From a virus, in IMG/VR virus record IMGVR_UViG_3300044732_000890, positions 1 to 50,688 of that record: DNA of 50,688 bases; one strand, given 5' to 3'. Positions 2,874-30,312 of the stretch are shown piece after piece (positions within the stretch are counted from its first letter, which is position 1; the number at the start of each line of letters is the position of its first letter). Both the position numbers and the translations under genes were made by a program. The notes beneath the pieces are model-generated. The model did no database searches. It was not told where the DNA came from and saw only the letters and a list, made by a program, of their open reading frames with translations.

Positions 2874-4211
2874 TTACCAGGCGCAGCCGGTAATGGTCTG
2901 GACAGCACCGGCGCGGAGCAGTGCCCAGTCGAGTTCCCAAACCGTGCGAAGCGCAGCCGAGTTCGTCTGGTAGAGCGAGCGAACCGGAGCTGCAGCCACT
3001 CCAGCGCCATCAACGATAGGCAGCGGGGTGGTATCTTCTTCGTGGATGGACGCCACCTCAGTACCCATGAAGCGCGGAGCGCCGCCAGCGAACGCGAGTT
3101 CGGCAGCGTCGATCAGGAACACGATATCAGAAGGTACGTTGGTCGAGGTGACCACCGGAATACCCATGAGGGTGTTCTGATTGGAGTCAGGGAACGTCGG
3201 CGTACCGGCCGCCGTCACCGAAAGCTGCACACCCCAAGCGCGGGCCGGATTCATAACCCAGACCGGACGGCGACCCATATTCTGGGAAGCCAGCTGCTGC
3301 AGGCGACCACGAACGTCGGCCATGATATTGGCAGACGAGTTGCCGGTCGAGGCGGCAGTGTTAGAGCCAGTCGCAAAAGTCTGCATACCAGCCGGTGAGA
3401 TAGGCGAGCTGGGGATGTTCGACAGGAACATCTGGTCGAGCTTGGTCGCCGTGTCCGCGATCATGGCATCACGGATGATCTGCTCAATCGACGGGGTCGA
3501 ACGCTCGAGCAGTTCCATAGTGTAGGTGCCGATGACACCCATCGACTTCGGCGACAGGGTCGCGGAGGTCATGGAGATCGCACCAACGCGGATCGGCGCA
3601 CCCTCGGCGCGGAAAGCCGCAGCAAGGTTCGGATTGTCCAGAGCTGCACGCTGCGGGATCTTGATCGACGCAGCACCGTTGAACTCGTAGCGAGTCATCG
3701 GAATGCGCGGGATCACGGATTCGCCGCGGAGCAGGTCCATGAAGCCGGCGTAGGATTCACGCACCAGTTCCTGCGCCCAGCCCGGCACGTTCGTCATGGC
3801 GGGGTTCTGGGTAGCCTTGGTGACGATGCCGGCGACGGACTTGACGACTTCGTCGTCGCCGTAGCGGGCTTCGATAGCCATCTCGACCGGGATGCGCTTC
3901 ACATAGGCGTCGAAAGCGACGAGAGCGGACTTCACCAGGAGGTCAGCCTTCGCGCTGTCCTTGACGCGGGAAGCGGGGTTGGCGTTGATCGCGGGAGCCT
4001 TGACGGCGCGGGCGACGGACTTCTCAACGGCGGCTTCAGCGGCCTTGAGGCGGTCCAGTTCGGCAGTCGCCTTCTCGACGGCTTCGGTGGCGGCAACCAC
4101 GGCGTCCTGAGACTCCTGGGTGTCATCCATCTTGGCGGTGAGGTCGACGAGGACATCGCGGGCAGCGACGAGTTCCGCCTGCTTGGCGGTGATCTGCTCA
4201 GAGAGCTTCAT
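2874..4211 (-). CDS. Major capsid protein (HK97 fold) with N-terminal scaffold-like domain
   Basis: The protein has 445 residues counted from the ATG at 4211. I chose this start because AGGA lies 8 bases upstream; the frame stays open further upstream but without a good site. The first ~85 residues are a charged, Ala/Glu/Lys-rich coiled coil (KLSEQITAKQAELVAARD), like the delta domain that scaffolds HK97-type assembly and is cut off by the prohead protease. The rest carries the usual capsid pattern, including a GIPVVTSTNVP strand near the end and an AELAFAGG.PRF segment. The start lies 14 bases inside the protease gene, so the two are translationally coupled, which fits their joint use in head maturation. 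Confidence 0.93.
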   Translation of the reverse strand: MKLSEQITAKQAELVAARDVLVDLTAKMDDTQESQDAVVAATEAVEKATAELDRLKAAEAAVEKSVARAVKAPAINANPASRVKDSAKADLLVKSALVAFDAYVKRIPVEMAIEARYGDDEVVKSVAGIVTKATQNPAMTNVPGWAQELVRESYAGFMDLLRGESVIPRIPMTRYEFNGAASIKIPQRAALDNPNLAAAFRAEGAPIRVGAISMTSATLSPKSMGVIGTYTMELLERSTPSIEQIIRDAMIADTATKLDQMFLSNIPSSPISPAGMQTFATGSNTAASTGNSSANIMADVRGRLQQLASQNMGRRPVWVMNPARAWGVQLSVTAAGTPTFPDSNQNTLMGIPVVTSTNVPSDIVFLIDAAELAFAGGAPRFMGTEVASIHEEDTTPLPIVDGAGVAAAPVRSLYQTNSAALRTVWELDWALLRAGAVQTITGCAW

Positions 4212-4791
4212 TGGAGTATTCCTGCTTAGAATTGATAGAATTGAGGGCATTTTCCCGCGCTGCGACTGCCCGCTTGAGAACCGCATCCCTCTCTTCATCG
4301 CTGGACCCAGCAGTGGAGGAAGCGGAGGTTTCCGGCGTCAGGGAGACACCGAAACTCTTAGCGATCTGCATCGCCCTTGGATGGGCCGGAATACTCACAA
4401 CGGAGCATTCGAGCAGTTCGATAGACTTGAAATGGATACCACCGGTCTTGTTCGGCTCGCCCGAACCGCGAAAACCAATCGAGGCACCCAACGGGACGCC
4501 ATCTGCGATCAGCGTCTTCGCCATCTGGGCCAGCGAGGTGGATGCGAACTTGATGTAGCCCGTCAGGCGGTCGCCTTCGGCCTTGAGGTTCTCCCAAGTG
4601 CCAATCGGGCGATCCGGGTCATGTTGCCAGAGCGCAATAAGCTTCCGGGTATTGTTAACGACGGACTTGTAAGCGGAAGGCTCAATAGTGTCCTTGACGC
4701 GATCAGGTGTCGCGGCAGACATCACGAAGCGGGCATCAAATGCCTCGCTTTCGCTCTTCTCAACGGTTACGGGGAGGTGCTTGATGTGCAT
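4198..4791 (-). CDS. Prohead protease (HK97 gp4 type, peptidase S78)
   Basis: This 197-residue protein has the catalytic pattern of HK97-type prohead proteases: His57 in LIALWQHD, Ser104 in LGASIGF, and the third region ELLECSVVSIPAHPRA (about 125-139). It would cut the capsid delta domain inside the prohead and is then expected to degrade itself. The length is typical. AAGG stands 9 bases before the ATG. The gene ends inside the capsid gene start. Confidence 0.93.
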   Translation of the reverse strand: MHIKHLPVTVEKSESEAFDARFVMSAATPDRVKDTIEPSAYKSVVNNTRKLIALWQHDPDRPIGTWENLKAEGDRLTGYIKFASTSLAQMAKTLIADGVPLGASIGFRGSGEPNKTGGIHFKSIELLECSVVSIPAHPRAMQIAKSFGVSLTPETSASSTAGSSDEERDAVLKRAVAARENALNSINSKQEYSNEAL

Positions 4792-4879
4792 CCGGCCGAA
4801 CCTTCATCGGTTGAGCCGGTTTTATGAACTTTACAGTTCCACCGTTGCGTTCAATTTTTCCGGGGCGAATGCGCGTCAT
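4760..4879 (-). CDS. Possible 39-residue leader ORF overlapping the protease start
   Basis: A short open frame (starts MTRIRPGKIERNGG, ends HQAPPRNR) begins at an ATG with GGAG 8 bases upstream and ends 32 bases inside the protease gene in another frame. It is basic and has no recognised domain. The good ribosome-binding site and the overlap suggest a translated leader coupled to the protease. At this length it could also be chance. Confidence 0.35.
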   Translation of the reverse strand: MTRIRPGKIERNGGTVKFIKPAQPMKVRPDAHQAPPRNR

Positions 4880-4912
4880 ACGTAAGCTCCGGCACGAGAA
4901 AACGGCGACGTA

Positions 4913-4937
4913 TTATCAGCATAATACACACTGATAA
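4913..4937. promoter_or_regulatory. Inverted repeat upstream of the capsid operon
   Basis: TTATCAG and CTGATAA are exact 7-base arms separated by 11 A+T-rich bases, in the 224-base gap between terminase and protease. The two-fold symmetry and the position between a candidate promoter and the first capsid-operon gene suggest an operator or an mRNA hairpin. No regulator can be assigned. Confidence 0.4.
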
Positions 4938-4977
4938 CATTCAAAGAAAATCTATTTAGAGCGTCGCCCATATTTTG

Positions 4978-5006
4978 CCCTTACGCCGGTTTGCCGCAAA
5001 AGTCAA
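4978..5006 (-). promoter_or_regulatory. Candidate promoter for the protease-capsid-portal unit (weak -10)
   Basis: On the minus strand the stretch AAAAATAACGCTTGACTTTTG repeats, almost base for base, the -35 region of the early plus-strand promoters. At the same 17-base spacing the -10 reads TAAGGG, a poor match to CTATAT, so this site may be weak, activator-dependent or a decayed copy. Confidence 0.45.
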
Positions 5007-5015
5007 GCGTTATTT

Positions 5016-6635
5016 TTACGCAATCCACCAGCTCAGGTCGTTACCTAAAGTTTCAGCCCGGCCATCGCTAACCGCGTAGGTAGCCATTATAGCGGCGATG
5101 AGTGGGTCGATGCGCTGAGTTGCTTTCGCCTTGCTAAGTTTTACGTCGCCGACATCATTTATGACCGCCACCGCATTGGCCGCCGCCATATTAAGTAGGG
5201 GATGGTTACCATGGCAAATGCGACCCTCAAGCATCAACGAAAGAAAGGCTTCAGCTCGCGGACTGAACTCCTTGAATCCCTGACCAATTGAATTCCAAAC
5301 CGCCAAGGAGCCGAAACCTTCTTCCTCGGCGACCCGCTTAAAGTCTTCAATACGCCACCTATCAAATTCCACCGTGGAGAGTGCAATACCTAGATCGTCA
5401 AGCCGAGTCTTTAGAGAATCTATAATCTGCGCGTAGTCCATGCTCTCGCCACCAACCGGAATCAACTGACCCTGCGTAATCCAAGCGGAGTATGGTGCCC
5501 GGTCACGACGACTGCGCTCTTCTACCCCATGTGTCGGGCAGAACACGAACGGAAGCAGATGGACGTTGCGAGTAACAGGATCCATGGCGGCAATCACGGC
5601 CGCCGTGAGGTCGTTGCGAGCCGAAAGGTCCAGCCCAATAGAAACCGGATTATTGCGAAACACCTCTAAGTCTGGCGGCGAACTGTTCTTGCGCCAAACC
5701 TGCGGAGATAAAAACAGATGCTCCTGCGCCACCCGCCGATTCAACAGCAGATTCTCGGCTCCGGCAGCCATGGCAGGTAAACGCTTAGCCTGCTCAAGCT
5801 GGTTGGCAAGATCAGACTTAGAGCGGAACACACCAAGACCGGGGTTAGCCATACGCATACCCTCAGCATCAAGTAGATCAAGTTCTTTAGGAGAGGTGTA
5901 AAGATGACAAACGGTATGAGGGTCTTGAGAACGCACCGCGTCGTCAATAAGTATAGATAGAAAGTCTGCATCAGATGCGGCCTGCGTGGAGATAGTAGCG
6001 AACAGGGCGTCAGAATACGAACCCTGAGAGGTGCGTAGCATCTCCGTATACTCGGTGGACGGACCCTTGATCTGTCCGCTTTCGTCCAACACGATGTATT
6101 TTAGCGAACGACCATGACCCGTCTTGGCTTCGGCACTCATCGCGTAGTAGGTCGTATTTAGGGCCAGACCCTTTATCTCTTTCGTGGAGGGTGTTACATG
6201 TAACACGTTCGCTACATCAGGCGACTGCAAAATCATCTGATGCATCATCTTGAAAACGAGCGAGGCCTGATCGCGGGAGTTAGCGGCCGAGGCGCAAGTG
6301 ATGTTCGGCTCGGCCAGCGGCCCACACAGCACGGCCAGTATAAGCACCGCCAGCAGGAAGGATTTACCGTTTCTGCGAGCGATACTCAGTATGGCTGTGC
6401 GGGTCCCTTTGGGGTTGTCTAGCACCGCCCGGAGCCAAGTCTCCTGAAATACATCCAGCCGGATAGGCTGACCCACGTGCTCACCATCCGGGATACGTAG
6501 GTGACGCTCTGCAAACAGAATTACCTTTTCTGCCCGCGTCAGCTTGTTTGGGTCGGTGATCTGGCGGAAGTTGCGCGGCTTGGGTGTCGGCCCGCAAACT
6601 ATCGCGCGCAGCACGTAATCTGGAAGAGCAGCCAT
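5016..6635 (-). CDS. terL: Terminase large subunit
   Basis: This 539-residue packaging motor has an N-terminal ATPase with a Walker A-like SIARRNGKS (84-92) and Walker B YIVLDE (180-185). The C-terminal RNase H-like nuclease shows the first acidic strand SIGLDLSARND (Asp336), the second EFDRW (Asp425) and the last Asp510 in QRIDPLIA. It cuts the concatemer and pumps DNA into the prohead through the portal. The sequence type is the HK97-like group with an adjacent HNH gene, which usually goes with cohesive-end packaging. The gene follows the small subunit at 4 bases. Confidence 0.95.
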   Translation of the reverse strand: MAALPDYVLRAIVCGPTPKPRNFRQITDPNKLTRAEKVILFAERHLRIPDGEHVGQPIRLDVFQETWLRAVLDNPKGTRTAILSIARRNGKSFLLAVLILAVLCGPLAEPNITCASAANSRDQASLVFKMMHQMILQSPDVANVLHVTPSTKEIKGLALNTTYYAMSAEAKTGHGRSLKYIVLDESGQIKGPSTEYTEMLRTSQGSYSDALFATISTQAASDADFLSILIDDAVRSQDPHTVCHLYTSPKELDLLDAEGMRMANPGLGVFRSKSDLANQLEQAKRLPAMAAGAENLLLNRRVAQEHLFLSPQVWRKNSSPPDLEVFRNNPVSIGLDLSARNDLTAAVIAAMDPVTRNVHLLPFVFCPTHGVEERSRRDRAPYSAWITQGQLIPVGGESMDYAQIIDSLKTRLDDLGIALSTVEFDRWRIEDFKRVAEEEGFGSLAVWNSIGQGFKEFSPRAEAFLSLMLEGRICHGNHPLLNMAAANAVAVINDVGDVKLSKAKATQRIDPLIAAIMATYAVSDGRAETLGNDLSWWIA

Positions 6636-6639
6636 AAGG

Positions 6640-7119
6640 TTAGTTGCGGGATGCGATCAGACTCAGCGGCCCCTTAGCCTTAATGGTTTCGATCGCTTTC
6701 TGGTCTTCCTTGGCGTTGGCCTGAACGGTCGCCTTGGCGCTGGTCGTGGTATTCATACTTAGCGAGCGGATCAGAGAAAGTTGCATGCTGAGTAAAGTAG
6801 CGTAGACTCGGGTGTTGGCGTTCTCGACCATCGTACCCCGCTGGTTTTCTACGACGTAACCCTCTCGCTTCAGGGTGGCCTTCACATCGCGAATGGAAAT
6901 CTCCAGCTCGATAATCTTGACCAGCATAACTAAGTCATGAGGCAGCCAATCTGACCGGGATCGGGCGGCGGTAAACGTGCGCCAAAGCTCCTTCTCCATG
7001 TCGGATTCAAACTTTACTCCCAGAGGAACTGGAATCTCCTGACCTATATCCGCAAAAGCCTGAACCGTACGCTCAAGGGTGCCAGCGCCGGGACGTTGAG
7101 GTTTGCGTTCGGTAGTCAT
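6640..7119 (-). CDS. terS: Terminase small subunit (probable)
   Basis: This 159-residue protein lies directly upstream of TerL. The ATG at 7119 has GGAG 10 bases upstream and is preferred over an in-frame TTG at 7134. It contains EKELWRTFTAARSRSDWLPHDLVMLVKI, then a region VKATLKREGYVVENQRGTMVENANTR that resembles the P27-type small subunits, and a charged C-terminus. It would recognise the packaging site and load TerL. The assignment rests on position and a partial pattern. Confidence 0.82.
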   Translation of the reverse strand: MTTERKPQRPGAGTLERTVQAFADIGQEIPVPLGVKFESDMEKELWRTFTAARSRSDWLPHDLVMLVKIIELEISIRDVKATLKREGYVVENQRGTMVENANTRVYATLLSMQLSLIRSLSMNTTTSAKATVQANAKEDQKAIETIKAKGPLSLIASRN

Positions 7120-7398
7120 TATGCGGTTCTCCAAGTTTGGTTATATTATATATTTAGGGTGATTCGTTGAGGAAGTCAAGGGGGTAAAGTCGAAGTTTAT
7201 TGTTAAGCCACCTAAAATGGGGTCCGAATTCTAGTAAGCACAGTCAAACAAATGGCAACAACGCGGTTGGGATCAAAAGCCGGTAATTTGACACCTCCCC
7301 CCCCACCATATATAGGCCCTCCAGTCCTGCGATTTAAGGAGTATAAGAATAAGGTCAGGACTTACGCGCACACTCCGCAGCCCAACAACATCAGCCAC
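7120..7398. other. Non-coding gap between TerS and HNH: promoter and possible packaging site
   Basis: This 279-base stretch has no credible gene. It holds the minus-strand promoter described separately and an unusual CACCTCCCCCCCCACC run (about 7292-7307) followed by ATATATAGG. A gap next to HNH and TerS is where HK97-like phages keep their cohesive-end site, but I cannot locate a cut site from sequence alone. Confidence 0.4.
7151..7179 (-). promoter_or_regulatory. Promoter for the terminase unit
   Basis: On the minus strand TTGACT (7174-7179) and TAAATA (7151-7156) are separated by exactly 17 bases, about 30 bases upstream of the TerS start. It fits the housekeeping-sigma type seen elsewhere in the window but lacks the conserved AAAAATAA upstream block. 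Confidence 0.6.
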
Positions 7399-10849: not shown

Positions 10850-11006
10850 CCTACGGCGCGGAACCCGCTACTTTGCCTCGGTTCAACCAAAAAGGCAACC
10901 CCCAAGGGTAAATTATTTTTCTGCAGAGGGAACCTTTTACCACCTCGGGCGTTGTAAATTGTTTTGTGCCCGCTAAAAATAATTTTACGCCACCCAAAAA
11001 TAAAGC

Positions 11007-15180: not shown

Positions 15181-15303
15181 ATGTCTTCAGCCCCCAACCG
15201 ACGCTTTCGGATGTCGTTCGGTAAGTTGCATAGCGAAGAAGCTAGACTAAAGATATCAGAAGCCCAACGCAAAAGATGGGCAATAAAGAAAGGTAAAGTT
15301 TGA
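15181..15303 (+). CDS. NUMOD3-like small DNA-binding peptide (40 residues)
   Basis: This 40-codon frame from the ATG at 15181 contains GKLHSEEARLKISEAQRKRW, the pattern of the NUMOD3 motif, a DNA-binding module normally found in HNH and GIY-YIG homing endonucleases (G-x-x-x-S-x-E-x-x-x-K-I-S). Here it stands alone, very basic, with no nuclease domain. It ends in TGATG with the PLP-enzyme start, so the two are translationally coupled. It may be a remnant of a homing endonuclease or a DNA-targeting peptide used by the modification enzymes. No strong ribosome site is visible. Confidence 0.6.
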   Translation: MSSAPNRRFRMSFGKLHSEEARLKISEAQRKRWAIKKGKV

Positions 15304-16241
15304 TGGCTCTCCCTACCCCAGCAGACCTCGACCGCCTCGCCGCCAAGCTCACGCCTTGGGAAAACCCGCAGGGTTTTTGGTTCAAGCGAGAAGACAAGTT
15401 TGCCCCGCTCGGTTACGGTGGCCCGAATGGATCAAAATTACGTCAGCTAATTCACCTCTTTGCCCGGCACAAGGGTAACGCTACGCATGTGGTGACTGGT
15501 GCGAGCATTCAGTCTCCGCAGCATAGCATGACCGCGTTCCTCGCTGCCGTGCACGGTCTCCCCTCCCTGCATGTCGTCGGTGCCACGACGCCAGAAACCA
15601 TTATGCGTCACCCCAACCCGCTCATCGCCGCCGGGTTCGGAGCCGCGTTTGACTATATCAAAGTTGGCTACAACCCGGCTTTGCAGAAGCGTGTGGCAGA
15701 GCTCAAACGGGAGATGGACGCAGCCTTCGAGGTGCCGTATGGTATCACGCTCGCTACCGACCTCTCCAGCCCTGAAGACCTCACAGCCTTTCACAGCGTT
15801 GGAGCGGCGCAAGTGGCGAACATCCCGGAGGAGGTGACCACGCTTATCGTACCGGCGGGAAGCTGCAACTCGCTAACCTCTGTCCTGCTTGGCCTCACAA
15901 CGCACAGCAACAACGTGCAGAAGGTCGTCAGCATCGGCATCGGTCCCTCCAAGATCGGCTGGGTGCGTGACCGGCTGCGCAAAATGAACGTGGACCCCGA
16001 CCGGCTCGCGTTTGAATGGAACCACAACATCTCCCTGCACGACAGCGATTATGCCAAGTACGGGGACCGTATGCCCGAGACGTTCGCCGGTATCAACTTC
16101 CATCCTACGTATGAGGGGAAGATGGTGCGGTGGATGAAGGAGCACGATATCTTCCGCGCCAACGCAGACTGTGGCTACGGCTTCTGGATCGTTGGCTCTG
16201 ATAGCAACCCAGAGGTATGTCGTCCTTTCTTTACGAATTAA
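15303..16241 (+). CDS. Fold-type II PLP-dependent enzyme, likely DNA-base tailoring
   Basis: This 312-residue protein is related to ACC deaminase, D-cysteine desulfhydrase and tryptophan synthase beta. Lys45 in GPNGSKLRQL matches the cofactor-binding lysine position, and VPAGSCNSLTS (about residue 183) matches the glycine/serine-rich phosphate loop. Metabolic enzymes of this family are rare in phages, but PLP enzymes recur in thymidine-hypermodification clusters; in Salmonella phage ViI one acts on an amino acid already joined to the base. The place beside the transferase, kinase and thymidylate-synthase homologue supports such a role. The start is the ATG at 15303, with AAAGG 9 bases upstream. 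The exact reaction (decarboxylation, deamination or elimination) cannot be read from the sequence. Confidence 0.82.
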   Translation: MALPTPADLDRLAAKLTPWENPQGFWFKREDKFAPLGYGGPNGSKLRQLIHLFARHKGNATHVVTGASIQSPQHSMTAFLAAVHGLPSLHVVGATTPETIMRHPNPLIAAGFGAAFDYIKVGYNPALQKRVAELKREMDAAFEVPYGITLATDLSSPEDLTAFHSVGAAQVANIPEEVTTLIVPAGSCNSLTSVLLGLTTHSNNVQKVVSIGIGPSKIGWVRDRLRKMNVDPDRLAFEWNHNISLHDSDYAKYGDRMPETFAGINFHPTYEGKMVRWMKEHDIFRANADCGYGFWIVGSDSNPEVCRPFFTN

Positions 16242-16265
16242 ATTCGCACTGCCTAAAAATAACGC

Positions 16266-16294
16266 TTGACTTCCTCCCCCGGTGCGCCTAAATA
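16266..16294 (+). promoter_or_regulatory. Early promoter P5 (modification cluster)
   Basis: CTTGACT-N17-CTAAATA, preceded by CTAAAAATAACG. The spacer differs from P1-P4. Leader hairpin CGGGG/CCCCG (16303-16317), then GTATAACGGAGA. It drives the nuclease-like, methyltransferase-like and two transferase genes. Confidence 0.85.
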
Positions 16295-16337
16295 AGGTTC
16301 ATCGGGGGTTGGCCCCGCGTATAACGGAGATAGAATA

Positions 16338-16703
16338 ATGGCTCGTAACACCACTGGACATTCTGGCGAGAAGTTTGTTGAAGCTATGCTCGGTTTTCAG
16401 GGCTTCACGGCTCTCGTCGCCCCGGCGGGCAACCCTAACTGGGATATCATGGTCGCTGAAAGTGGTAAGAAAATTTCGGTAAAGGCCTCTAACTCGTCCG
16501 GTTTTGTAGCTGAGTTTTCAGCTACAGACACGTTCGATGTTCTGGCCGTAGTGGATGCATTTAATTCACGCTATCCACGTGTATGGTTCATCCCCCGCTA
16601 TATTGCGATCAAGCTCCCCACCGTAGGCGGTAAGGTGCGTATAAAAGCTTCGGATTTGAATTACGATCTTGCTCAGTTTGAAACCAACTTCGATGTCCTC
16701 TAA
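16338..16703 (+). CDS. PD-(D/E)XK-like protein of unknown role
   Basis: This 121-residue protein has the core of the PD-(D/E)XK fold: a helix with Glu15, then GNPNWDIMVAESGKKISVKAS, where Asp36 and Lys49 stand at the active-site spacing, but the usual Glu before x-Lys is Ser/Val. It could be a divergent or inactive nuclease that binds DNA. It is the first gene after P5 and starts the modification operon, so a role in recognising or protecting modified DNA is possible. Confidence 0.6.
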   Translation: MARNTTGHSGEKFVEAMLGFQGFTALVAPAGNPNWDIMVAESGKKISVKASNSSGFVAEFSATDTFDVLAVVDAFNSRYPRVWFIPRYIAIKLPTVGGKVRIKASDLNYDLAQFETNFDVL

Positions 16704-16713
16704 CGGAGACCCC

Positions 16714-17457
16714 ATGACCACTCACTGGAAAATCCTAAACAAATATCCGTTCGAGCTGATTCCCGGCGAGGCTAAAGAGATGCCCGATGGAGATCTCTCA
16801 TACTATGAGTATCTGAACGGTCGCTGGAAGGAGACTGGCAAGAACGTGATGGCTATCGCGTGGCTGCTGCGCAACTTCCCGCAGGGTCTAAAGATTATCG
16901 AGCCGTTCGGCGGCTGTGGCGTGTTCTCGGTGGCTATTCAAGAGATAATGAAGCCAAGCTATCATCGCATCGGCGAGCTGGATGGCGACTGCTACAAACA
17001 GCTTACGCACGTTATGTCTCGCTATCCCAGCGCCGCTGTCTTCAACGATGATGCCCATCAGACCCTCGGCACCATCGCCGGGGACATCTACGTCTGCGAC
17101 TTCCCGTTCTTCACCCTGATCAAACACGAGACCGGGTATTGGGTTGAGGAGATGAAGCGTATAGTCGCCCAGCGTCCACGTGCTATCCTCATCACGGATG
17201 GAGCAAGCTGCCGTTACCACTTCACGGCTAAGGCTCTTTCCAACAGAGGCTACCCGGTCACCCCGGACCGTGAGAGCTACGCTTATTGCTTTGACCAGAT
17301 GATGTCCCGCACATACGACTATCACGTGACCGGGATGGTCTATCACGGCACATGTTTCTACATCCGAGTTGAGCCCGAGCCTCGTGAGATTGAGTTCCTG
17401 AAGCTGGAGGCTGGCTCGGGCGTCAACGGTCTGCGTCCCGACCCGAAAGGTATTTGA
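16714..17457 (+). CDS. Methyltransferase-like protein in the modification cluster
   Basis: This 247-residue protein starts at the ATG at 16714 (AACGGAG upstream). It resembles class I SAM-dependent DNA methyltransferases: EPFGGCGVFSVA (63-74) as the SAM loop, GELD (87-90) as the end of strand 2, NDD (111-113), and CDFPFF (128-133) where adenine methyltransferases have DPPY. The changed catalytic motif argues against a standard adenine methyltransferase. It may act on the modified thymine side chain or have lost methylation. It lies directly upstream of the transferase gene (one base apart). Confidence 0.65.
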   Translation: MTTHWKILNKYPFELIPGEAKEMPDGDLSYYEYLNGRWKETGKNVMAIAWLLRNFPQGLKIIEPFGGCGVFSVAIQEIMKPSYHRIGELDGDCYKQLTHVMSRYPSAAVFNDDAHQTLGTIAGDIYVCDFPFFTLIKHETGYWVEEMKRIVAQRPRAILITDGASCRYHFTAKALSNRGYPVTPDRESYAYCFDQMMSRTYDYHVTGMVYHGTCFYIRVEPEPREIEFLKLEAGSGVNGLRPDPKGI

Positions 17458-17458
17458 C

Positions 17459-18460
17459 ATGACCATAGATTATCGCCCGCACCCAACCCGCGTCATGTAC
17501 TGCGAGGATCTCTACCGGGTCAACCTCGAGCATGGGATCATGCCGGGTCTCGTCTACCTCTACATGCCCGCTCTCAAACAGACCCTCAACTGGTCTGAGG
17601 AGCGTGCGCTGTGGTTCGCCTTCATCAACGGTATGACCCAGAACCCGCTCACCTCTCTGCTGATCCTTGAGCAGCTGCCGGATGTACCCGACCCCGGCGA
17701 CCCCATCACCACGTTTGACGAGTGGTTCAACCGTGAGTGGCCGCGCCTCTTCTTCGACACCGACCGGCTGAAGAACAAGCGCAACACGATATCTGCGATC
17801 AAGTCCTACGCCAAGCTCGTCGGCGAGTATGGCTCGCAGCAGCTTATGCTAGACAACCGTACCTATCCCGAGCTCTGGAACATCGTGTCCAACGGCTACT
17901 ACAGCTTCGGTCGCCTGTCCACGTTCTCGTATCTTGAGTACGTGCGGATCATGGGTCACGGATCCATTTGCGCCGACCTTATGGTCTCGGACAAAGGTGG
18001 CTCTAAATCCCACCGCAACGGTTTGCTGTTCCTGACTGGTCTTGACCATATGGTTAATGATCCCCGCGCTAAGAACGGGTTTGATGGCAACTATCAGGAC
18101 TACGACAAGATGTGCGGCTGGCTGACCGAACAGGCTAACGAGTTCCTGCGCCGGTTCACCGCTAAGCACACGTACCAGCATACCGGCTACTTTACATTTG
18201 AGTCGCAGCTATGTCAATTTAAAAATAATTTCTTTGGTCGACGTTATCCAGGATGCTACGCCGACATGGCGTTTGACCGGCTATTGAAACATGAAGACGC
18301 GTGGGGAAAGGACCGAGCGACGAAATTGATTTGGGATATCCGCACATCTCTTCCAGACTGGCTGCGTAACGAGGCTAAGAACGACAAACTGTCTATACCG
18401 GACCGGGCCAAGATCTTCCCGCGCACCGGCTTCCCGTACAGAGGAGAACATTTCCTGTGA
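17459..18460 (+). CDS. Amino acid:DNA transferase-like protein (alpha-glutamyl/putrescinyl-thymine pyrophosphorylase family)
   Basis: This 333-residue, mostly helical protein starts RVMYCEDLYRVNLEHGIMPG and has the family pattern WFAFINGMTQNP (52-63). This family was predicted, and in phages ViI and M6 shown, to replace the pyrophosphate of an activated 5-hydroxymethyl-dU in DNA by an amino acid or polyamine. It overlaps the next gene by GTGA. The assignment comes from motif memory; the substrate (Ser, Gly, Glu, putrescine) cannot be read. Confidence 0.8.
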   Translation: MTIDYRPHPTRVMYCEDLYRVNLEHGIMPGLVYLYMPALKQTLNWSEERALWFAFINGMTQNPLTSLLILEQLPDVPDPGDPITTFDEWFNREWPRLFFDTDRLKNKRNTISAIKSYAKLVGEYGSQQLMLDNRTYPELWNIVSNGYYSFGRLSTFSYLEYVRIMGHGSICADLMVSDKGGSKSHRNGLLFLTGLDHMVNDPRAKNGFDGNYQDYDKMCGWLTEQANEFLRRFTAKHTYQHTGYFTFESQLCQFKNNFFGRRYPGCYADMAFDRLLKHEDAWGKDRATKLIWDIRTSLPDWLRNEAKNDKLSIPDRAKIFPRTGFPYRGEHFL

Positions 18461-19332
18461 ACTCAACCCTCAAGCACTTCATAACCGAGCGCGAGGCCAT
18501 TCGTGTGCGCAAGGCCTCGGGTCAGCCCGCACCGTGGACAACCGACCCCATTTTACAGCAATATCGTTTCTGTAACGTCCACCGCCGCGACGACCGCGTG
18601 TCTCAGTGGCTGCTGAAGCACTATTATCCACACACCGCCAAGGGTGTGGACGCTTGGTTTCCGGCTTTGGTTGCCCGGTTCATCAACTGGCCTCCCACCC
18701 TGAAGCTCCTATTGGAGTCCGGCGTGGGGCTGGCAGCCGGGGAGGTGTGGAACCCTCATGCGTTCGAGGCGGTGATCGCTAGGCTCAAGTCTGCCGGCGA
18801 GAAGGTTTACACCGGAGCGTACATGATCTATCCGGGTAGTAGGGATGGCGACACCGCCGTGGCAAACAAGGAGCAGTTCCTCGCGCGGCAGGTCTTCGCC
18901 GGTGCGCGGGCTAACACCTCCAAGATTCGTCATGCCATCTGGCAGCTGAGCATAGAAAAGACGGTACACGAGCTCACCCAGAGCTACGGTATCTCTACTT
19001 TCATGGCAGGGCAGGTCGCCGCCGATTTGACTTACCTATACGATGCGCTGGACCTCGCCTTGGATAAGCGAACCTACGCACCTATGGGACCCGGCTCCAT
19101 CCGGGGTCTGAACCGTATACACGGCTTTAAGCTAACGCATACTTGGCAACCTCACGAATTTGTAGAGGCTTTGATGGATATTCATAGAGATATTGAGCGC
19201 GAGCTGGGAATTATGGACCTCACGCTTCACGATGTGCAAAACATTGCAGCTTGTGAATATGACAAATACCTGCGTGTGCTCAATGGTGAGGGTAAACCTC
19301 GCGCAAATTACCGACCAGAAACCGCTTTTTGA
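18457..19332 (+). CDS. 5-hmdU DNA kinase helical-domain-like protein
   Basis: This 291-residue protein contains ILQQYRFCNVHRRDDRVSQW (33-52), the hallmark of the helical domain that in several phages is fused to the P-loop 5-hydroxymethyl-dU DNA kinase, and which was first named a clade of thymine pyrophosphorylases. Here kinase and helical domain are separate genes (the kinase follows at 19390). It starts with GTG overlapping the preceding stop, with AGAGGAGA upstream. It probably binds the modified base or its DNA for phosphorylation. Confidence 0.8.
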   Translation: MNSTLKHFITEREAIRVRKASGQPAPWTTDPILQQYRFCNVHRRDDRVSQWLLKHYYPHTAKGVDAWFPALVARFINWPPTLKLLLESGVGLAAGEVWNPHAFEAVIARLKSAGEKVYTGAYMIYPGSRDGDTAVANKEQFLARQVFAGARANTSKIRHAIWQLSIEKTVHELTQSYGISTFMAGQVAADLTYLYDALDLALDKRTYAPMGPGSIRGLNRIHGFKLTHTWQPHEFVEALMDIHRDIERELGIMDLTLHDVQNIAACEYDKYLRVLNGEGKPRANYRPETAF

Positions 19333-19334
19333 AC

Positions 19335-19363
19335 TTGACTTAACCCGTAAACCCGGCTAATCT
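19335..19363 (+). promoter_or_regulatory. Promoter for the kinase / dUMP-hydroxymethylase pair
   Basis: CTTGACT-N17-CTAATCT starts 3 bases after the stop of the helical-domain gene. It lacks the AAAAATAA upstream block, so it is probably weaker than P1-P4. The leader is AAGATAACGGAGAA without a hairpin. Confidence 0.75.
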
Positions 19364-19389
19364 ATCGCAACAAGATAACGGAGAACTAG

Positions 19390-19989
19390 ATGCCAATCAT
19401 CATCAACCTGCGTGGAACGTCCGGCTCCGGCAAGACTACGGCCGCCCGGTTTTTCCTCAACAACTACACCAATATCGAAATGCGGCGCAGCGTGACCTCG
19501 CCCAAGGGCCGCACTTCATCTAAGATTATGGGTTATGCCATAGACGTTCCCACCTTGCAGCAGTCGCTGTATCTTGTCGGGGCGTACGGTGCCGTGTGCG
19601 GGGGCTTGGATACCATGGGCACTCAGGCCGAGCATGCCGATCTGATCCTCAAGGCCTACTCCGCCGGCAACGTGCTGTGCGAGGGTCTACTGCTGAGCTC
19701 AGTAAGCTCCGGGGCCACAGTCCCGGCGGCCATGATCGGGGCGGCCGGTAAGGAGCGTGTGATCTTTGCTTTTATGGACACTCCGCTAGACGTATGTTTG
19801 GACCGCGTGCGCGGCCGCCGAGCGGCCCGAGGCGATGATAAACCTTTCAACGAGACCAACACTCGTAAGAAGTATGAGGACACACAAGCCGCTCGTCAGC
19901 GACTTATTGACGAGGGCTGCCGTGTCGTAGACATCAGCCACCTCAACCCCGGACCCCAGCTCCTTTCTCTTTATCAGGACAACGAATAA
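19390..19989 (+). CDS. 5-hydroxymethyl-dU DNA kinase-like P-loop protein
   Basis: This 199-residue protein has Walker A GTSGSGKT (9-16), VLCEGLLLSS, and FMDTPLDVCLDRVRGRR as a nucleotide-kinase-like lid region. It resembles the P-loop kinases that phosphorylate 5-hydroxymethyl-dU within DNA in hypermodifying phages. Its neighbours (helical partner before, thymidylate-synthase homologue 1 base after) fit this exactly. A generic nucleoside kinase is the alternative. Confidence 0.8.
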   Translation: MPIIINLRGTSGSGKTTAARFFLNNYTNIEMRRSVTSPKGRTSSKIMGYAIDVPTLQQSLYLVGAYGAVCGGLDTMGTQAEHADLILKAYSAGNVLCEGLLLSSVSSGATVPAAMIGAAGKERVIFAFMDTPLDVCLDRVRGRRAARGDDKPFNETNTRKKYEDTQAARQRLIDEGCRVVDISHLNPGPQLLSLYQDNE

Positions 19990-19990
19990 C

Positions 19991-20947
19991 ATGCACTTCA
20001 TCTTCGAAAACTGCAACGACGCATGGCCGACGACGGTTCAGATGATACAAACATCTGGAGTTATCCGTAACAGTCGCAACGGTCGCGTTTCTGAATATCC
20101 GGATCCGGTTACGATAACATACGAGCGTCCGTATGAGCGGGTCTTGTTCTGCCCCTTGCGCAACATCAACCCCTTTTTGCACTTCTTTGAGCCACTTTGG
20201 ATTCTTGCCGGACGCCGGGATGTTGAGTTCCTTTCTAACATTGTTGGTCGTTTCCGCGACTATTCAGATGACGGTAAGGTATTCAACGCTGCCTATGGTC
20301 ACCGGCTTCGTTACCCTAACGATCAGATCGCCGAAGCTATTAAGCGTCTAAAGCGTAATCCGGACGATAGACAAGTCGTTCTTCAGATACGCAAGCCAGA
20401 CGACATTTACTACACGGGAAAGGACACCGCATGCAATTTGTCAATTGCGCTTAAGGTGCGTAATCGCTATTTGGACATTCACGTATTTAATCGCTCTAAC
20501 GACGTTGTTTGGGGCGGCCCTGCGGGAGGTGCAAATTACCCTCAGTTTACAACCATCCAGGAATATATTGCCGGTCACGTGGGTTGCGGTATTGGCCGGT
20601 ATCACCACACAACAGATAGTATGCACGCTTACATCGACAGCCCAGACTGGGACCGGGTAAAAGACGTTCAGGGTTATCACGACTTATACCTTTGGGACAA
20701 TGTTCCGCCATATCGTCTTTTTGATGGTTTGTTGTTCCCTGAACTGTTTGATCAAGATCTGCAGTTCTTCTTTAGCGAGCGGGCTACAACCGGATACGCC
20801 ACCTCTTACTTTAAGGATGTCGTTGGGCCGATGTGGGCCGCGTTTCAGGCGTATAAGCGTAGGGAGCAGGTAGATTTTTCCGCTATACGAGCCAGGGATT
20901 GGGCTTTTGCGGTTGAATCTTGGCTCGCGCGCAAAAATAAAGCTTGA
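19991..20947 (+). CDS. Thymidylate synthase homologue, probable dUMP 5-hydroxymethylase
   Basis: This 318-residue thymidylate-synthase-fold protein shows Cys148 in DTACNLSIAL at the nucleophile position, FNRSNDVVWGG (compare QRS.D in thymidylate synthase) and HHTTDSMHAYI near the end of the site. Between them GGPAGGANYPQF replaces the usual GLPFNIA, typical of divergent phage pyrimidine hydroxymethylases. It would make 5-hydroxymethyl-dUMP with methylene-tetrahydrofolate and water. The stop codon lies inside the -35 box of the next promoter. Confidence 0.85.
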   Translation: MHFIFENCNDAWPTTVQMIQTSGVIRNSRNGRVSEYPDPVTITYERPYERVLFCPLRNINPFLHFFEPLWILAGRRDVEFLSNIVGRFRDYSDDGKVFNAAYGHRLRYPNDQIAEAIKRLKRNPDDRQVVLQIRKPDDIYYTGKDTACNLSIALKVRNRYLDIHVFNRSNDVVWGGPAGGANYPQFTTIQEYIAGHVGCGIGRYHHTTDSMHAYIDSPDWDRVKDVQGYHDLYLWDNVPPYRLFDGLLFPELFDQDLQFFFSERATTGYATSYFKDVVGPMWAAFQAYKRREQVDFSAIRARDWAFAVESWLARKNKA

Positions 20948-25937: not shown

Positions 25938-25969
25938 GTGGGGGCTTCGGCCCCCACCAAATTATTTTT
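25938..25969 (+). terminator. Intrinsic terminator before P7
   Basis: GTGGGGGC-TTCG-GCCCCCAC (8 base pairs, UUCG loop), then CAAATTATTTTTG. The T-rich part is also the upstream block of promoter P7. Confidence 0.85.
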
Positions 25970-25989
25970 GGGCGACCTAAAAATAACGC

Positions 25990-26018
25990 TTGACTTTTGC
26001 GCCGGCAGGCCTCATATT
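25990..26018 (+). promoter_or_regulatory. Early promoter P7
   Basis: CTTGACT-N17-TCATATT, preceded by CTAAAAATAACG. Leader ACTGATAACGGAGAA without hairpin. Confidence 0.85.
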
Positions 26019-26047
26019 GGACTCAAGACTGATAACGGAGAACCAAG

Positions 26048-26911
26048 ATGACCGACTTCTTTGACCACCTCCCCGAGTTTGAAATCATCGAAGGCCCGGC
26101 TCGTCCGGCCCAGACCCGTCAGACGTTCCCCTGCGAAAGCTGCGGCGGCAAGGGTAAGGTCGCCAAGGTGTACGGCTATACGCCGATGACCCAGCGCACC
26201 TACATGAACACCTGTCCGATTTGCAAAGGTAAGGGCCACTTCTTCACCTCCTACGCCGATCGTCAGAAGTCTCAGGCTCAAGCCGCTGCTGCTAAGGTTC
26301 GCAAGGCTGAGGCCGCCCGTGAGGACTTTGATACCGCCAACCCCGGCGTCCGCGAGTTCCTTATGGGTGCTATGAATTGGTCGAGCTTCGCCGCTTCCTT
26401 GTTTGAGAGCCTCGCCAAGCACCATAGCCTCTCGGAGAAACAACTTGCGGCGGCTCAGAGCATGATGGAGAAGGCCAAGTCTCGCGACGCCGAGCGCAAC
26501 GCTAAGCGCGCAGCCAATACCGTGACGCTGGATGCCTCCAACATCCTCGGCATGTTCTCTACGGCCAAGGCCAACGGCTTGAACCGTCGCGCCCTGCTGG
26601 CCGGTGGCACCGAGGGTAAGCTCAAGGTCACCCCGTCCTCGGACACGAGCCGCAACGCTGGTGGTCTGTGGGTCACGGTCGACGACGAGTTCGTCGGCGG
26701 CATCAGCAAGACCGGCGAGTTCCAGCCGCGCAGCAACACCCCGGCATGGGCTAAGGACGCCCTGCTCCGCATGGCTGCCGACCCGGCTGGCGAGGCTCGC
26801 CTCTACGGTCAGCGTACCGGCGTGTGCTGTTGCTGTGGTCGCGAGCTTACCGACCCGGTCAGCATCGAGGCTGGAATAGGCCCGATATGTGCAGAGAAGT
26901 GGGGGCTCTAA
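26048..26911 (+). CDS. Zinc-finger protein with DnaJ-like CxxCxGxG and C-terminal DUF6011-like part
   Basis: This 287-residue protein has CESCGGKGK (Cys29, Cys32) and CPICKGKGH (Cys56, Cys59), which make one DnaJ-type zinc site. A helical, Ala-rich middle and a basic domain GGLWVTVDDEFVGGISKTG follow. The end CCCCGRELTDPVSIEAGIGPICAEKWG is the DUF6011-type treble-clef pattern that appears in many phage and plasmid proteins. It probably binds nucleic acid; the exact role is unknown. It is transcribed alone between P7 and a terminator that overlaps its stop. Confidence 0.78.
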   Translation: MTDFFDHLPEFEIIEGPARPAQTRQTFPCESCGGKGKVAKVYGYTPMTQRTYMNTCPICKGKGHFFTSYADRQKSQAQAAAAKVRKAEAAREDFDTANPGVREFLMGAMNWSSFAASLFESLAKHHSLSEKQLAAAQSMMEKAKSRDAERNAKRAANTVTLDASNILGMFSTAKANGLNRRALLAGGTEGKLKVTPSSDTSRNAGGLWVTVDDEFVGGISKTGEFQPRSNTPAWAKDALLRMAADPAGEARLYGQRTGVCCCCGRELTDPVSIEAGIGPICAEKWGL

Positions 26912-26933
26912 GCCCCCATCAAATTATTTTTTG
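26900..26933 (+). terminator. Intrinsic terminator overlapping a stop codon, before P8
   Basis: TGGGGGCT-CTA-AGCCCCCA (8 base pairs); the TAA stop of the zinc-finger gene lies in the loop and stem. TCAAATTATTTTTT follows. Confidence 0.85.
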
Positions 26934-26952
26934 GGCAGCCTAAAAATAACAC

Positions 26953-26981
26953 TTGACTTTTGAGAGCATCGGTGGCATATT
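26953..26981 (+). promoter_or_regulatory. Early promoter P8
   Basis: CTTGACT-N17-GCATATT, preceded by CTAAAAATAACA; leader CTGAATAACGGAGAAA. It drives the nuclease / MT-A70 pair and what follows, to about 30.75 kb. Confidence 0.85.
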
Positions 26982-27011
26982 GGGTTCACAACTGAATAAC
27001 GGAGAAACAAG

Positions 27012-27575
27012 ATGACTATCCGCACCGTCAAAGATGCTGACTCAATACATAAGCTCGTAGGTCTGTATGCCGCGCTTCAGTCAGCGCGAGTTTCGTCTGG
27101 ATACTTTGTAGAGGACCGGGTAGCTGATGTTTTATCTACGTTATACACCGGGACGTTAGTCAAGCGGTTCAAGATTAAATCTCCTAATTCAGATAGAAAA
27201 ACGAAACAGTTCGATGTAGCAATTCGTAACGGTAACTCTCTAGATGTGTTTGAAATTAAAACATACGCGGGAGATTCATTTACCTATTCTGAAGATACTG
27301 TGTTCAAGTCCATTTACACCGACTTGGAAGTTCTAAAATCCGCAAATCCCGGTGTTGATGTAAAGCTATACTATGTGTTTTCAGATATTGATAGTGAGTT
27401 TGCGATACGTATGAAGAAAGAAAAAGTTGTCGGTGTGATATCGTTTGCCGATATAGGTCTGAATGCAAACGAACTTATCATCGAAGGTATGATGCTAAAA
27501 TTCAATAAGAACCTCGCTGACCTGTCCATTTCTGATAATCTCAAGAAAGCTATAACTGATGAATTCTCAGCGTAA
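27012..27575 (+). CDS. PD-(D/E)XK endonuclease-like protein, partner of the MT-A70 methyltransferase
   Basis: This 187-residue protein has a restriction-endonuclease-type core: Glu34 in YFVEDRVADVL, Asp68 in KQFDVAIRNG and Glu81-x-Lys83 in VFEIKTYAG. The C-terminal 80 residues are helical. The reading frame is visibly A+T-richer than its neighbours, a sign of separate origin. Its end overlaps the methyltransferase start by 17 bases, so both are made together, like a small restriction-modification pair. It could also be a nuclease that spares modified DNA. No family name can be given. Confidence 0.65.
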   Translation: MTIRTVKDADSIHKLVGLYAALQSARVSSGYFVEDRVADVLSTLYTGTLVKRFKIKSPNSDRKTKQFDVAIRNGNSLDVFEIKTYAGDSFTYSEDTVFKSIYTDLEVLKSANPGVDVKLYYVFSDIDSEFAIRMKKEKVVGVISFADIGLNANELIIEGMMLKFNKNLADLSISDNLKKAITDEFSA

Positions 27576-28104
27576 ATATAAGGTGATATACGCCGACCCG
27601 CCGTGGAACTTTGAAACGTACTCTGAAAAGGGACAAGTCAAAACCCCTCACAGACATTACGGTTGCATGACCGAAGCCGATATCGGAAAACTACCGATAT
27701 CAGATATTGCTGACAAGGACTGCGCACTATTTATGTGGATAATAGACAGTCATCTACACCACGCGATGAAAATTATTGAGCAGTGGGGTTTTACTTATAA
27801 AACTGTCGCGTTTGTCTGGGCTAAAACCACCAAGCATAACAAATGGCATTTTGGGCAAGGCTACTGGACCCGTAAAAACCCAGAAATATGTTTGATGGCC
27901 ACTAGAGGTTCTCCTAAAAAAGCTTCTTGGGCTGTACGTCAGCTTGTAGTTGCTCCGGTTAGGGAGCATTCTCGTAAGCCTGACGAAGTCCGGGAGGGTA
28001 TTGTTCAGCTGATGGGCGATGTACCTAGGATTGAACTGTTTGCAAGGACTACAACTCCCGGTTGGGACGTATACGGCAACGAAACAGATAAATTTAAACC
28101 ATGA
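27559..28104 (+). CDS. MT-A70 family adenine-N6 methyltransferase
   Basis: This 181-residue protein has the catalytic DPPW (13-16, in YADPPWNF), KDCALFMWI, FVWAKTT and NPEICLMATRG, all typical of small phage MT-A70 enzymes that methylate adenine N6 in DNA. The C-terminal FARTTTPGWDVYGNE is the usual end. It overlaps both the nuclease-like gene before and the next gene (4 bases, ATGA). Confidence 0.93.
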   Translation: MNSQRKYKVIYADPPWNFETYSEKGQVKTPHRHYGCMTEADIGKLPISDIADKDCALFMWIIDSHLHHAMKIIEQWGFTYKTVAFVWAKTTKHNKWHFGQGYWTRKNPEICLMATRGSPKKASWAVRQLVVAPVREHSRKPDEVREGIVQLMGDVPRIELFARTTTPGWDVYGNETDKFKP

Positions 28105-28916
28105 CCGACATCATTACACGTATCTATGACGCGATCAAGCGGGAGAGGCAAGGTTCAAAGTACCTTTCCCGGCTTGGAGCTAGCAGCTTTGGGCAGGAAT
28201 GCCTTCGTCGCACGTATCTCAGCTGGAGGGGGTTCGCTTTTAGCGATTTCGACGGTCGCATGCTACGGCTATTTGAGACCGGTCACCTTCAAGAGGCTCG
28301 CATCGTCGACGATCTCCGTCGGGCCGGGTTTGCTGTTTGGGATAAGGATGAAGATGGTAACCAGTTTGGTTTTACCGATACAACAGGTCATCTTATTGCC
28401 AAACTTGACGGTGTGATCAAAGGCATACCCGGAGATGAAGACACACCGCACACTCTTGAAATCAAAACTCACTCGCGCAAGTCGTTTGACACGCTGATCA
28501 AGAAAGGTATGAAAGAGGTCAAGTTTGAACACTATGTTCAGATGCAAATCGGCATGTGGCTTTCCGGTATCTCTAAAGGTTTGTACGTCGCTTTGTGTAA
28601 GGACGATGAAGCTTACCATGTAGAATTTGTTGAACCCGACGAGGAGGTGCTTACGGCGCTTAAAGAACGGTTAGACACCTTGTTAACTGCCTCTCTTGTC
28701 CCGGCTGGTATTTCAGAAAACCCGGATAAATTTCCCTGTGCGTGGTGCGATATGAAAGCCGTATGCTATGGGTTGGATAAACCGGACCGGAACTGTCGCA
28801 CGTGTGTTAACTGTGAGCCAATAGAAGATGGCGGATGGATGTGTTCGCTTACCTCTACCGGGCTTACCAAGCAAGAACAGGAGAAGGCTTGTGACCTCTA
28901 CTCGTCCCGCCTTTAA
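28101..28916 (+). CDS. RecB/Cas4-like PD-(D/E)XK nuclease with cysteine cluster
   Basis: This 271-residue protein has SSFGQECLRRTYLSW near the start, ETGHLQE, the core LDG ... EIKTH and QMQIGMW, in RecB/Cas4-nuclease order. A Cys-rich C-terminus follows (CAWCDMKAVC, then CRTCVNC), which with Cys in the first motif could hold an iron-sulfur cluster. It would process DNA ends for recombination together with the Sak4-like protein. It overlaps the helicase gene by 26 bases. Confidence 0.85.
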   Translation: MTDIITRIYDAIKRERQGSKYLSRLGASSFGQECLRRTYLSWRGFAFSDFDGRMLRLFETGHLQEARIVDDLRRAGFAVWDKDEDGNQFGFTDTTGHLIAKLDGVIKGIPGDEDTPHTLEIKTHSRKSFDTLIKKGMKEVKFEHYVQMQIGMWLSGISKGLYVALCKDDEAYHVEFVEPDEEVLTALKERLDTLLTASLVPAGISENPDKFPCAWCDMKAVCYGLDKPDRNCRTCVNCEPIEDGGWMCSLTSTGLTKQEQEKACDLYSSRL

Positions 28917-30312
28917 GTATCTCACCGAGCCACGTAAACATCAGGTTGCCGCTCTTGAGAAAATGGGCGACAAGCACGCTTTCGGTCTATTCATGGACGT
29001 GGGTACCGGCAAGAGCTGGACCACGATCGCTGTGATGGGTCGCCGGTTCTGTGCCGGGGAGAGCGATCACGCCCTGATCATCTCCAAGAACGGAGTTCAG
29101 ACTCAGTGGGTGAATTCTGAGATACCTAAACACCTCCACCCAGACATTCCCCGGCAAACGATGGTCTACCGTAATAGCGCCGCGCTTAATAAGCGCCTTG
29201 ATGAGCTGCTGAGGTTTGACGGTCTGAAGGTTCTGGCTATGAACGTGGAGTCTATTGCCACACCCGCCGGGTTTGAGGCGGCGTCTCGTTTCCTCCGGGC
29301 GGGTAACGGTCGGGGAGCTATCTACCTTGACGAAAGCCAGACTATCAAGAGTGCGGGAGCCAAGCGCACTCGCGCTGCTCTACGCCTCGGCAAGCTCGCC
29401 AAGTACCGCATGATTCTGACAGGTACGCCCATTTCCAAGGATGTAGTTGACCTGTACTCCCAGCTTTCGTTTCTTGATCAGGACATTCTTAGGCTAACCC
29501 GCAAGGCGGACTTTATCCGCAACTATTGTGTGACGGTCATGACGCCTTACGGTGAAGAGATCGTCGGTCAGAAAAATGTTGAACAGCTTCAGGCTCAAAT
29601 AGACCCTCACATTTTTCGCATCACTTCGGCGGAAGCGTTGGACCTCCCTCCTCGCGTCTATGACCAGATCCCGTTCGAACTTTCAGAAGAGCAACTTCAT
29701 CTTATTCGGCAGATCAAGAATGACTATTATACCGCTGACGCCGCAGGTGAAGCCACAGTTAGCAATGCCGCAGCCGCTTTAACACGCATACAGCAGGTTT
29801 CCTGCGGTTTTCTCCCGCTTGATGACGGAACGATTAGGGAGCTGTCGAATCCTCGTCTAGACGCCTTGCTATCCCTTCTAGAGCAACGCAAAGGGAAGGC
29901 GATCATCTGGTGTCGGTTTAATGAAGATATCAAGCGTGTGTGGCAGTCTCTCAGCCCGCTGGGTGTTCACTACTTCGGCAAAACTTCTCCGGCAGACCGG
30001 GAGACGGCTCTCTCCGCGTTCATGGACCCCGACTCTGGTATCCGCTACCTGATCGCCAACCCAGAGGCGGCCGGGACCGGGCTCAACCTTCAGGGTATCT
30101 GCCAGACCAATGTCTACTACTCGAACTCGTTTAATGCTCTGTCTCGGTGGCAGTCAGAGGGTCGAACGTGGCGAGATGGCACACTCGGCTCCGTCACCTA
30201 CTTTGACCTTGTCGCTAACCGCTCACCCGACAAGCGTGTACTAAAAAACCTCAACGACAAGAAATCTATATCCGACCTAAACCTTGATGAGTACCGGGAG
30301 TTAATGAAGTGA
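28891..30312 (+). CDS. SF2 (SNF2-like) DNA helicase/translocase
   Basis: This 473-residue protein counts from the GTG at 28891, which has GGAGAAGG upstream; the frame is open earlier but inside the nuclease gene. Motifs: Walker A DVGTGKSWTT, DEAD-like YLDESQTIKS, LTGTPIS (III), IIWCRFNEDIKRVW (IV), EAAGTGLNLQ (V) and RWQSEGRTWRDG (VI). Such proteins remodel forks or load recombinases in phages. It is coupled to the next gene by GTGA. Confidence 0.9.
   Translation: MTSTRPAFKYLTEPRKHQVAALEKMGDKHAFGLFMDVGTGKSWTTIAVMGRRFCAGESDHALIISKNGVQTQWVNSEIPKHLHPDIPRQTMVYRNSAALNKRLDELLRFDGLKVLAMNVESIATPAGFEAASRFLRAGNGRGAIYLDESQTIKSAGAKRTRAALRLGKLAKYRMILTGTPISKDVVDLYSQLSFLDQDILRLTRKADFIRNYCVTVMTPYGEEIVGQKNVEQLQAQIDPHIFRITSAEALDLPPRVYDQIPFELSEEQLHLIRQIKNDYYTADAAGEATVSNAAAALTRIQQVSCGFLPLDDGTIRELSNPRLDALLSLLEQRKGKAIIWCRFNEDIKRVWQSLSPLGVHYFGKTSPADRETALSAFMDPDSGIRYLIANPEAAGTGLNLQGICQTNVYYSNSFNALSRWQSEGRTWRDGTLGSVTYFDLVANRSPDKRVLKNLNDKKSISDLNLDEYRELMK

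Follow-up and report, generated by a model that had tools for sequence, protein, structure and literature searches.

Positions 27012-28104 of the virus record IMGVR_UViG_3300044732_000890 hold a small open reading frame that overlaps a gene for an MT-A70 adenine N6-methyltransferase. The locus raises the question of whether the two genes form a compact restriction-modification (R-M) unit carried as cargo, as the original prediction proposed, or whether they are neighbors with largely separate roles. The analysis covered the whole virus record of 50,688 bases, referred to here as the window. Our preference, which is tentative and set at less than an even chance, is for an accessory early nuclease that would act against DNA lacking the phage's modifications, together with an independent MT-A70 enzyme that would serve in anti-restriction.

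Results

Gene layout and base composition

The first gene of the pair is a plus-strand ORF encoding a protein of 187 aa (27012..27575). Its last 17 bp (27559-27575) overlap the MT-A70 gene on the same strand (27559..28104; 181 aa), and by coordinates the end of the MT-A70 gene overlaps by 4 bp the start of a plus-strand gene for a Cas4-domain exonuclease, a conserved recombination gene (28101..28916; phrog_1990, E=5.7e-85). The same operon continues on the plus strand with a SNF2-type DNA helicase gene (28828..30312; phrog_62, E=2.2e-105; Pfam PF00176), whose real start probably lies further downstream than annotated. Profile matches placed genes for a Sak4-like annealing protein, an SSB-like protein and a DUF6011 protein 5′ of the pair. 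The original prediction had named Asp68 and Glu81-x-Lys83 in the first protein and a 17-base overlap with an MT-A70 gene; both descriptions were exact (D68, E81-I-K83), and the methyltransferase motif is intact.

The nuclease-like frame had also been described as A+T-richer than its surroundings, and the base composition bears this out. GC3 is 0.40 in the nuclease-like gene and similarly low in the MT-A70 gene (0.43), compared with 0.76 in the upstream DUF6011 gene and 0.53 in the downstream exonuclease gene. GC content is 37.8% in the bin 27200-27599, compared with 65% in the bin 26400-26799 and 55% for the genome. The same-strand overlap and the shared A+T-richness fit the accessory cargo part of the original prediction. 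These features suit a cognate pair equally well, as the genes are adjacent and overlapping, are both A+T-rich, and may have been acquired together. A cognate R-M unit would consist of a site-specific nuclease and an MT-A70 enzyme that methylates adenine in the same site, thereby protecting phage DNA, and we consider such a unit somewhat unlikely for reasons that arise from both proteins.

The upstream protein is likely a PD-(D/E)XK protein

A bare D-x8-22-[DE]xK motif was present in 86% of shuffles of the 187-aa protein, which is chance level. The bare D...ExK motif was discarded as evidence for a nuclease on this ground. A hydrophobic-framed version of the motif occurred in 1.8% of shuffles of the same protein.

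Profile searches related the protein to NERD (PF08378), a family of the PD-(D/E)XK superfamily. The NERD profile, over its positions 1-69, matched residues 29-97 with an E-value of 0.0059 in a search of all Pfam. The match scored 17.5 bits (18.4 bits in a whole-window search), below the curated cut-off of 22.1, and thus we class the protein as NERD-like only and not as a member of the family. Across the six frames of the window, the ORF at 27012-27575 gave the sole NERD match (E=1e-4). When aligned to a custom profile built from six NERD domains, the protein placed D68, E81 and K83 on the catalytic D/E/K columns, with E34 as a possible additional residue, and it ranked 18th of 5,001 sequences (itself and 5,000 shuffles). 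The NERD proteins in this comparison come from bacterial genomes, whereas the present protein is encoded by a phage. Additionally, the PADLOC Csx1 nuclease model matched residues 29-86 (E=0.002).

Two single-sequence AlphaFold models, both of low confidence (pLDDT 37 and 44), gave the order helix-strand-strand-strand-helix-strand, which is that of the PD-(D/E)XK core. In these models D68 lies on the second strand of this core, and E81 and K83 lie on the third. Based on a NERD match that is unique in the window and on the alignment of D68, E81 and K83 with the catalytic columns, the 187-aa protein likely has a PD-(D/E)XK fold.

A nuclease motif can also arise by coincidence or persist in decayed form, in which case the ORF would encode some other accessory early protein. 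The chance level of the bare motif agrees with this explanation, as do the weakness of the profile matches, with NERD below its cut-off, and a Foldseek search with the second weak model (pLDDT 44), where no nuclease was among the matches listed. In contrast, coincidence accounts poorly for a sole NERD match in which every catalytic column is aligned, and the order of secondary structure in the two low-confidence models suits the fold. On balance we find a coincidental or decayed motif improbable.

Searches for relatives of the 187-aa protein in PHROGs, NCBIfam, phages, plasmids, IMG/VR, GTDB contigs and PDB sequences returned none, the IMG/VR and GTDB scans being sensitive to close relatives only. 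Similarly, no relative was detected in 50 virus records bearing relatives of its neighbor genes (49 with an MT-A70 relative and one with a Cas4 exonuclease relative), and a degenerate DNA pattern for the nuclease motif had no match in IMG/VR. The protein matched no PHROG and none of the restriction-enzyme models of Pfam, NCBIfam and PADLOC. The lack of a restriction-enzyme family match argues against a cognate R-M unit. The failure to find relatives also counts against the nuclease that we favor, as do the sub-threshold profile match, the poor models and the Foldseek result.

The methyltransferase belongs to a mostly orphan clade

The second gene product is a full-length MT-A70 family member. 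PF05063 covers the protein over the full profile (positions 1-172 of 172; E=8.9e-33), the DPPW motif is intact within ADPPW at residues 12-16, and the protein aligns with METTL3 through SRKPDE and IELFAR. It also matches phrog_359 over its full length (E=1.1e-82), in common with orphan phage MT-A70 proteins such as those of Salmonella phage epsilon15 and Mannheimia phages. The present gene differs in that a nuclease-like gene overlaps it, whereas those relatives lack such a gene. A PADLOC 'MTase_II' match was discarded as evidence, since it reflects only the methyltransferase family.

Relatives of the MT-A70 protein were found in 350 phage records, with a best identity of 54%, and in IMG/VR contigs with identities up to 59%. 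We compared gene neighborhoods at 80 loci from IMG/VR and 80 from GTDB. The upstream genes vary and include helicases, UvsY-like recombination proteins, phosphoesterases, regulators and other methyltransferases, while other DNA methyltransferases and helicases recur downstream. No recurring nuclease partner was present among the best 25 neighbor families listed (97 upstream and 106 downstream neighbors sampled). Overall, the relatives sit mostly beside genes for replication, recombination or other methyltransferases, and the clade appears to be mostly of the orphan type that is common in phages. The R-M reading therefore gains no support from conservation.

Inspection by eye of these MT-A70 loci revealed a small upstream PD-(D/E)XK-like protein only in virus contigs L022 and L025, which share one type, and in locus L157. 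The small genes of the first two (L022 1968-2420 and L025 383-838) each lie 53 bp upstream of the MT-A70 gene. A distant relative of the L022-type protein is encoded just after the polymerase gene, near an exonuclease gene, in Pelagibacter phage HTVC041P, where no methyltransferase is annotated in its surroundings.

Type II R-M systems have adjacent nuclease and methyltransferase genes, and this arrangement is found here if the first gene encodes a nuclease. Conserved pairing is a second mark of such systems, and on the methyltransferase side it was absent among the families listed. Furthermore, the nuclease gene comes first, so that protection would trail cutting. There is precedent for a cognate pair in the chloroviruses, where restriction and methylation genes are always adjacent and have been linked to degradation of host DNA (PMC7019647). 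The resemblance to chlorovirus pairs such as CviAI and CviAII is one of gene layout, with a virus-encoded nuclease, which would cut host DNA, beside a methyltransferase, and the phage studied here differs in that it probably also hypermodifies thymine. Of the original prediction, the cargo character of the pair fits the data. Its cognate character is not supported: no restriction-enzyme family matched, no recurring nuclease was listed near MT-A70 relatives, and a predicted thymine-hypermodification pathway offers the phage another means of protecting its DNA.

MT-A70 enzymes usually require a partner. In Shiga-toxin phage PA8 this partner is PNB-2, the product of a gene upstream of the MT-A70 gene; PNB-2 co-purifies with the enzyme and directs it to 16S rRNA (PMC10810198). 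By analogy, the upstream protein in our phage could be a non-nuclease partner that steers the MT-A70 enzyme to DNA or RNA. The position of the gene is the same in both phages, and the overlap of the genes here suggests coupled synthesis. PNB-2, however, has been described with a winged-helix motif, whereas the 187-aa protein is NERD-like and aligns with NERD including the catalytic D/E/K. We therefore give a non-nuclease partner little credence.

The pair occupies a variable slot in a recombination operon

Six distantly related modules (L082, L083, L084, L085, L086 and L092) contain Sak4 and/or SSB genes followed by the Cas4 exonuclease gene, with neither gene of the pair between them. The gap ahead of the exonuclease gene is empty or holds other genes, the latter in L085 and L086. 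By tblastn, SSB was undetected in L085 and Sak4 was undetected in L086, although Sak4 is annotated there. In the present phage the same gap holds the DUF6011 gene and the nuclease-like/MT-A70 pair. Because the gap is filled differently or empty in relatives, we regard it as variable, and the pair appears to be accessory. Both genes of the pair are missing together from this slot, as would be expected of a cognate R-M unit.

The location of the pair raises one further explanation, that the first protein is a recombination or replication nuclease which cuts Holliday junctions or branches for the Sak4/SSB/Cas4 exonuclease/helicase module, with an unrelated methyltransferase beside it. T7 endonuclease I is the model for a branch-cutting recombination nuclease of this kind. 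The operon shared with the exonuclease and helicase genes speaks for such a role, as does the position of the distant relative of the L022-type protein between polymerase and exonuclease in phage HTVC041P. Absence from the slot in the six related modules and the A+T-richness of the gene indicate, however, that the module does not depend on it as a constant component, and we consider a dedicated recombination nuclease quite unlikely.

Relatives of other genes of this phage were also sought. Where relatives of the helicase were found (about 55% identity), the fetched stretches contained none of the other module genes that were tested, and a polymerase search of IMG/VR returned no close relative. 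A terminase search identified two IMG/VR contigs, both short fragments distant from the 27012-28104 region; one was identical over the 4,236 bp fetched, and the other showed 89% protein identity. The first, a contig of 7,124 bases, matches window positions 3019-7254 with its fetched portion (L182 1-4236), and this identity means that the same or a near-identical phage has been assembled twice.

Repeated regulatory cassettes precede the pair and the DUF6011 gene

An intrinsic terminator on the plus strand (26899..26919; stem of 9 pairs, loop of 3) overlaps the stop codon of the DUF6011 gene. Its stem is followed by an A/T-rich, T-containing tail, and a near-copy lies at 25938-25957. Downstream of the terminator is a plus-strand promoter cassette (26940..26981) with the sequence CTAAAAATAACACTTGACTT, followed by CATATT 17 nt after TTGACT. 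This cassette is one of nine promoter-like copies in the window (about CYMAAAATAANNNTTGACTT; 0.03 expected by chance), at 5000 on the minus strand and at 10994, 12067, 12682, 13435, 16253, 20931, 25977 and 26940. In seven of the nine, TATATT or CATATT occurs 17 nt after TTGACT. One exact 24-base form of the repeat was not found in IMG/VR.

A ribosome-binding leader, ATAACGGAGA (26996..27005, plus strand), stands immediately ahead of the pair. Exact copies precede many genes of the same arm, and the leader is often found 3′ of the promoter-like copies, so that repeat and leader possibly define a shared regulon. The DUF6011 gene lies between near-identical terminator-promoter cassettes (25938-26040 and 26899-27011), an arrangement suggestive of gene insertion between repeated regulatory cassettes. 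With a promoter copy and the common leader before the pair, the insert is apparently under the phage's own control. From the genes that the promoter repeat precedes, we infer that this control operates early.

A separate module predicts thymine hypermodification

A set of five plus-strand genes with profile matches (15300..20947) suggests that the phage DNA contains hypermodified thymine. The set comprises a PLP enzyme at 15300 (PALP, 3.3e-06, below cut-off), an amino acid:DNA transferase at 17459 (ADDT, 5.6e-12), a 5-hmdU kinase helical domain at 18457 (HMUDK_hel, 1.7e-44), a P-loop kinase at 19390 (HMUDK, 0.00099, below cut-off) and a thymidylate synthase homologue at 19991 (Thymidylat_synt, 4.5e-16). 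Given this module, the phage probably has a shield that is independent of the MT-A70 enzyme. In phages M6, ViI and phi W-14, thymine hypermodifications make the DNA resistant to many type II enzymes, and on phage M6 DNA adenine methylation adds partial further protection (PMC6449724).

Discussion

In the explanation that we favor, the two genes of 27012-28104 are an accessory insertion at a variable site in the recombination operon, apparently driven by the phage's own repeated promoter. The first gene would encode a small PD-(D/E)XK endonuclease with a NERD-like core, made early, which would most likely cut or nick unmodified DNA such as the host chromosome, plasmids or competing phages. The resulting DNA ends could be degraded by the Cas4 exonuclease encoded next door. 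Phage DNA would be spared mainly through the hypermodified thymine predicted from the separate gene module, and the MT-A70 enzyme would place N6-methyladenine on that DNA, giving a second and largely separate layer of protection from host restriction. Support for this proposal comes from the NERD profile match and its catalytic alignment, the nine-copy promoter, the variable slot, the low GC3, the hypermodification genes and the orphan-type neighborhoods of MT-A70 relatives. Cleavage of host DNA is proposed by analogy.

The individual parts are of known kinds; the novelty is that an orphan protein resembling a nuclease is encoded beside a methyltransferase of orphan type, in a phage predicted to hypermodify its thymine. 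A nuclease that spares phage-modified DNA would give thymine hypermodification, which is mainly seen as a shield, an offensive use. Phage T4 makes offensive use of its modified cytosine in a like manner. A bolder version, which we regard as unlikely, is that the protein represents a new family of PD-(D/E)XK nucleases that tells self from non-self by hypermodified thymine or by the m6A of its partner, giving a two-layer, modification-shielded destruction of host or rival DNA. If instead the two genes are a cognate pair, the locus would be a compact R-M unit in a phage whose DNA is probably base-modified.

A second adjacent pair of small genes (16338-17457) lies behind a promoter copy and encodes proteins of 121 aa and 247 aa, neither of which had a relative or a family match in the searches made. 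The 121-aa protein has a PD-(D/E)XK-like stretch in which the acidic residue reads S (NWDIMV...SVK), with a 16-residue similarity to the L022 protein, and the 247-aa protein shows by eye a methyltransferase-like motif (EPFGGCGVF).
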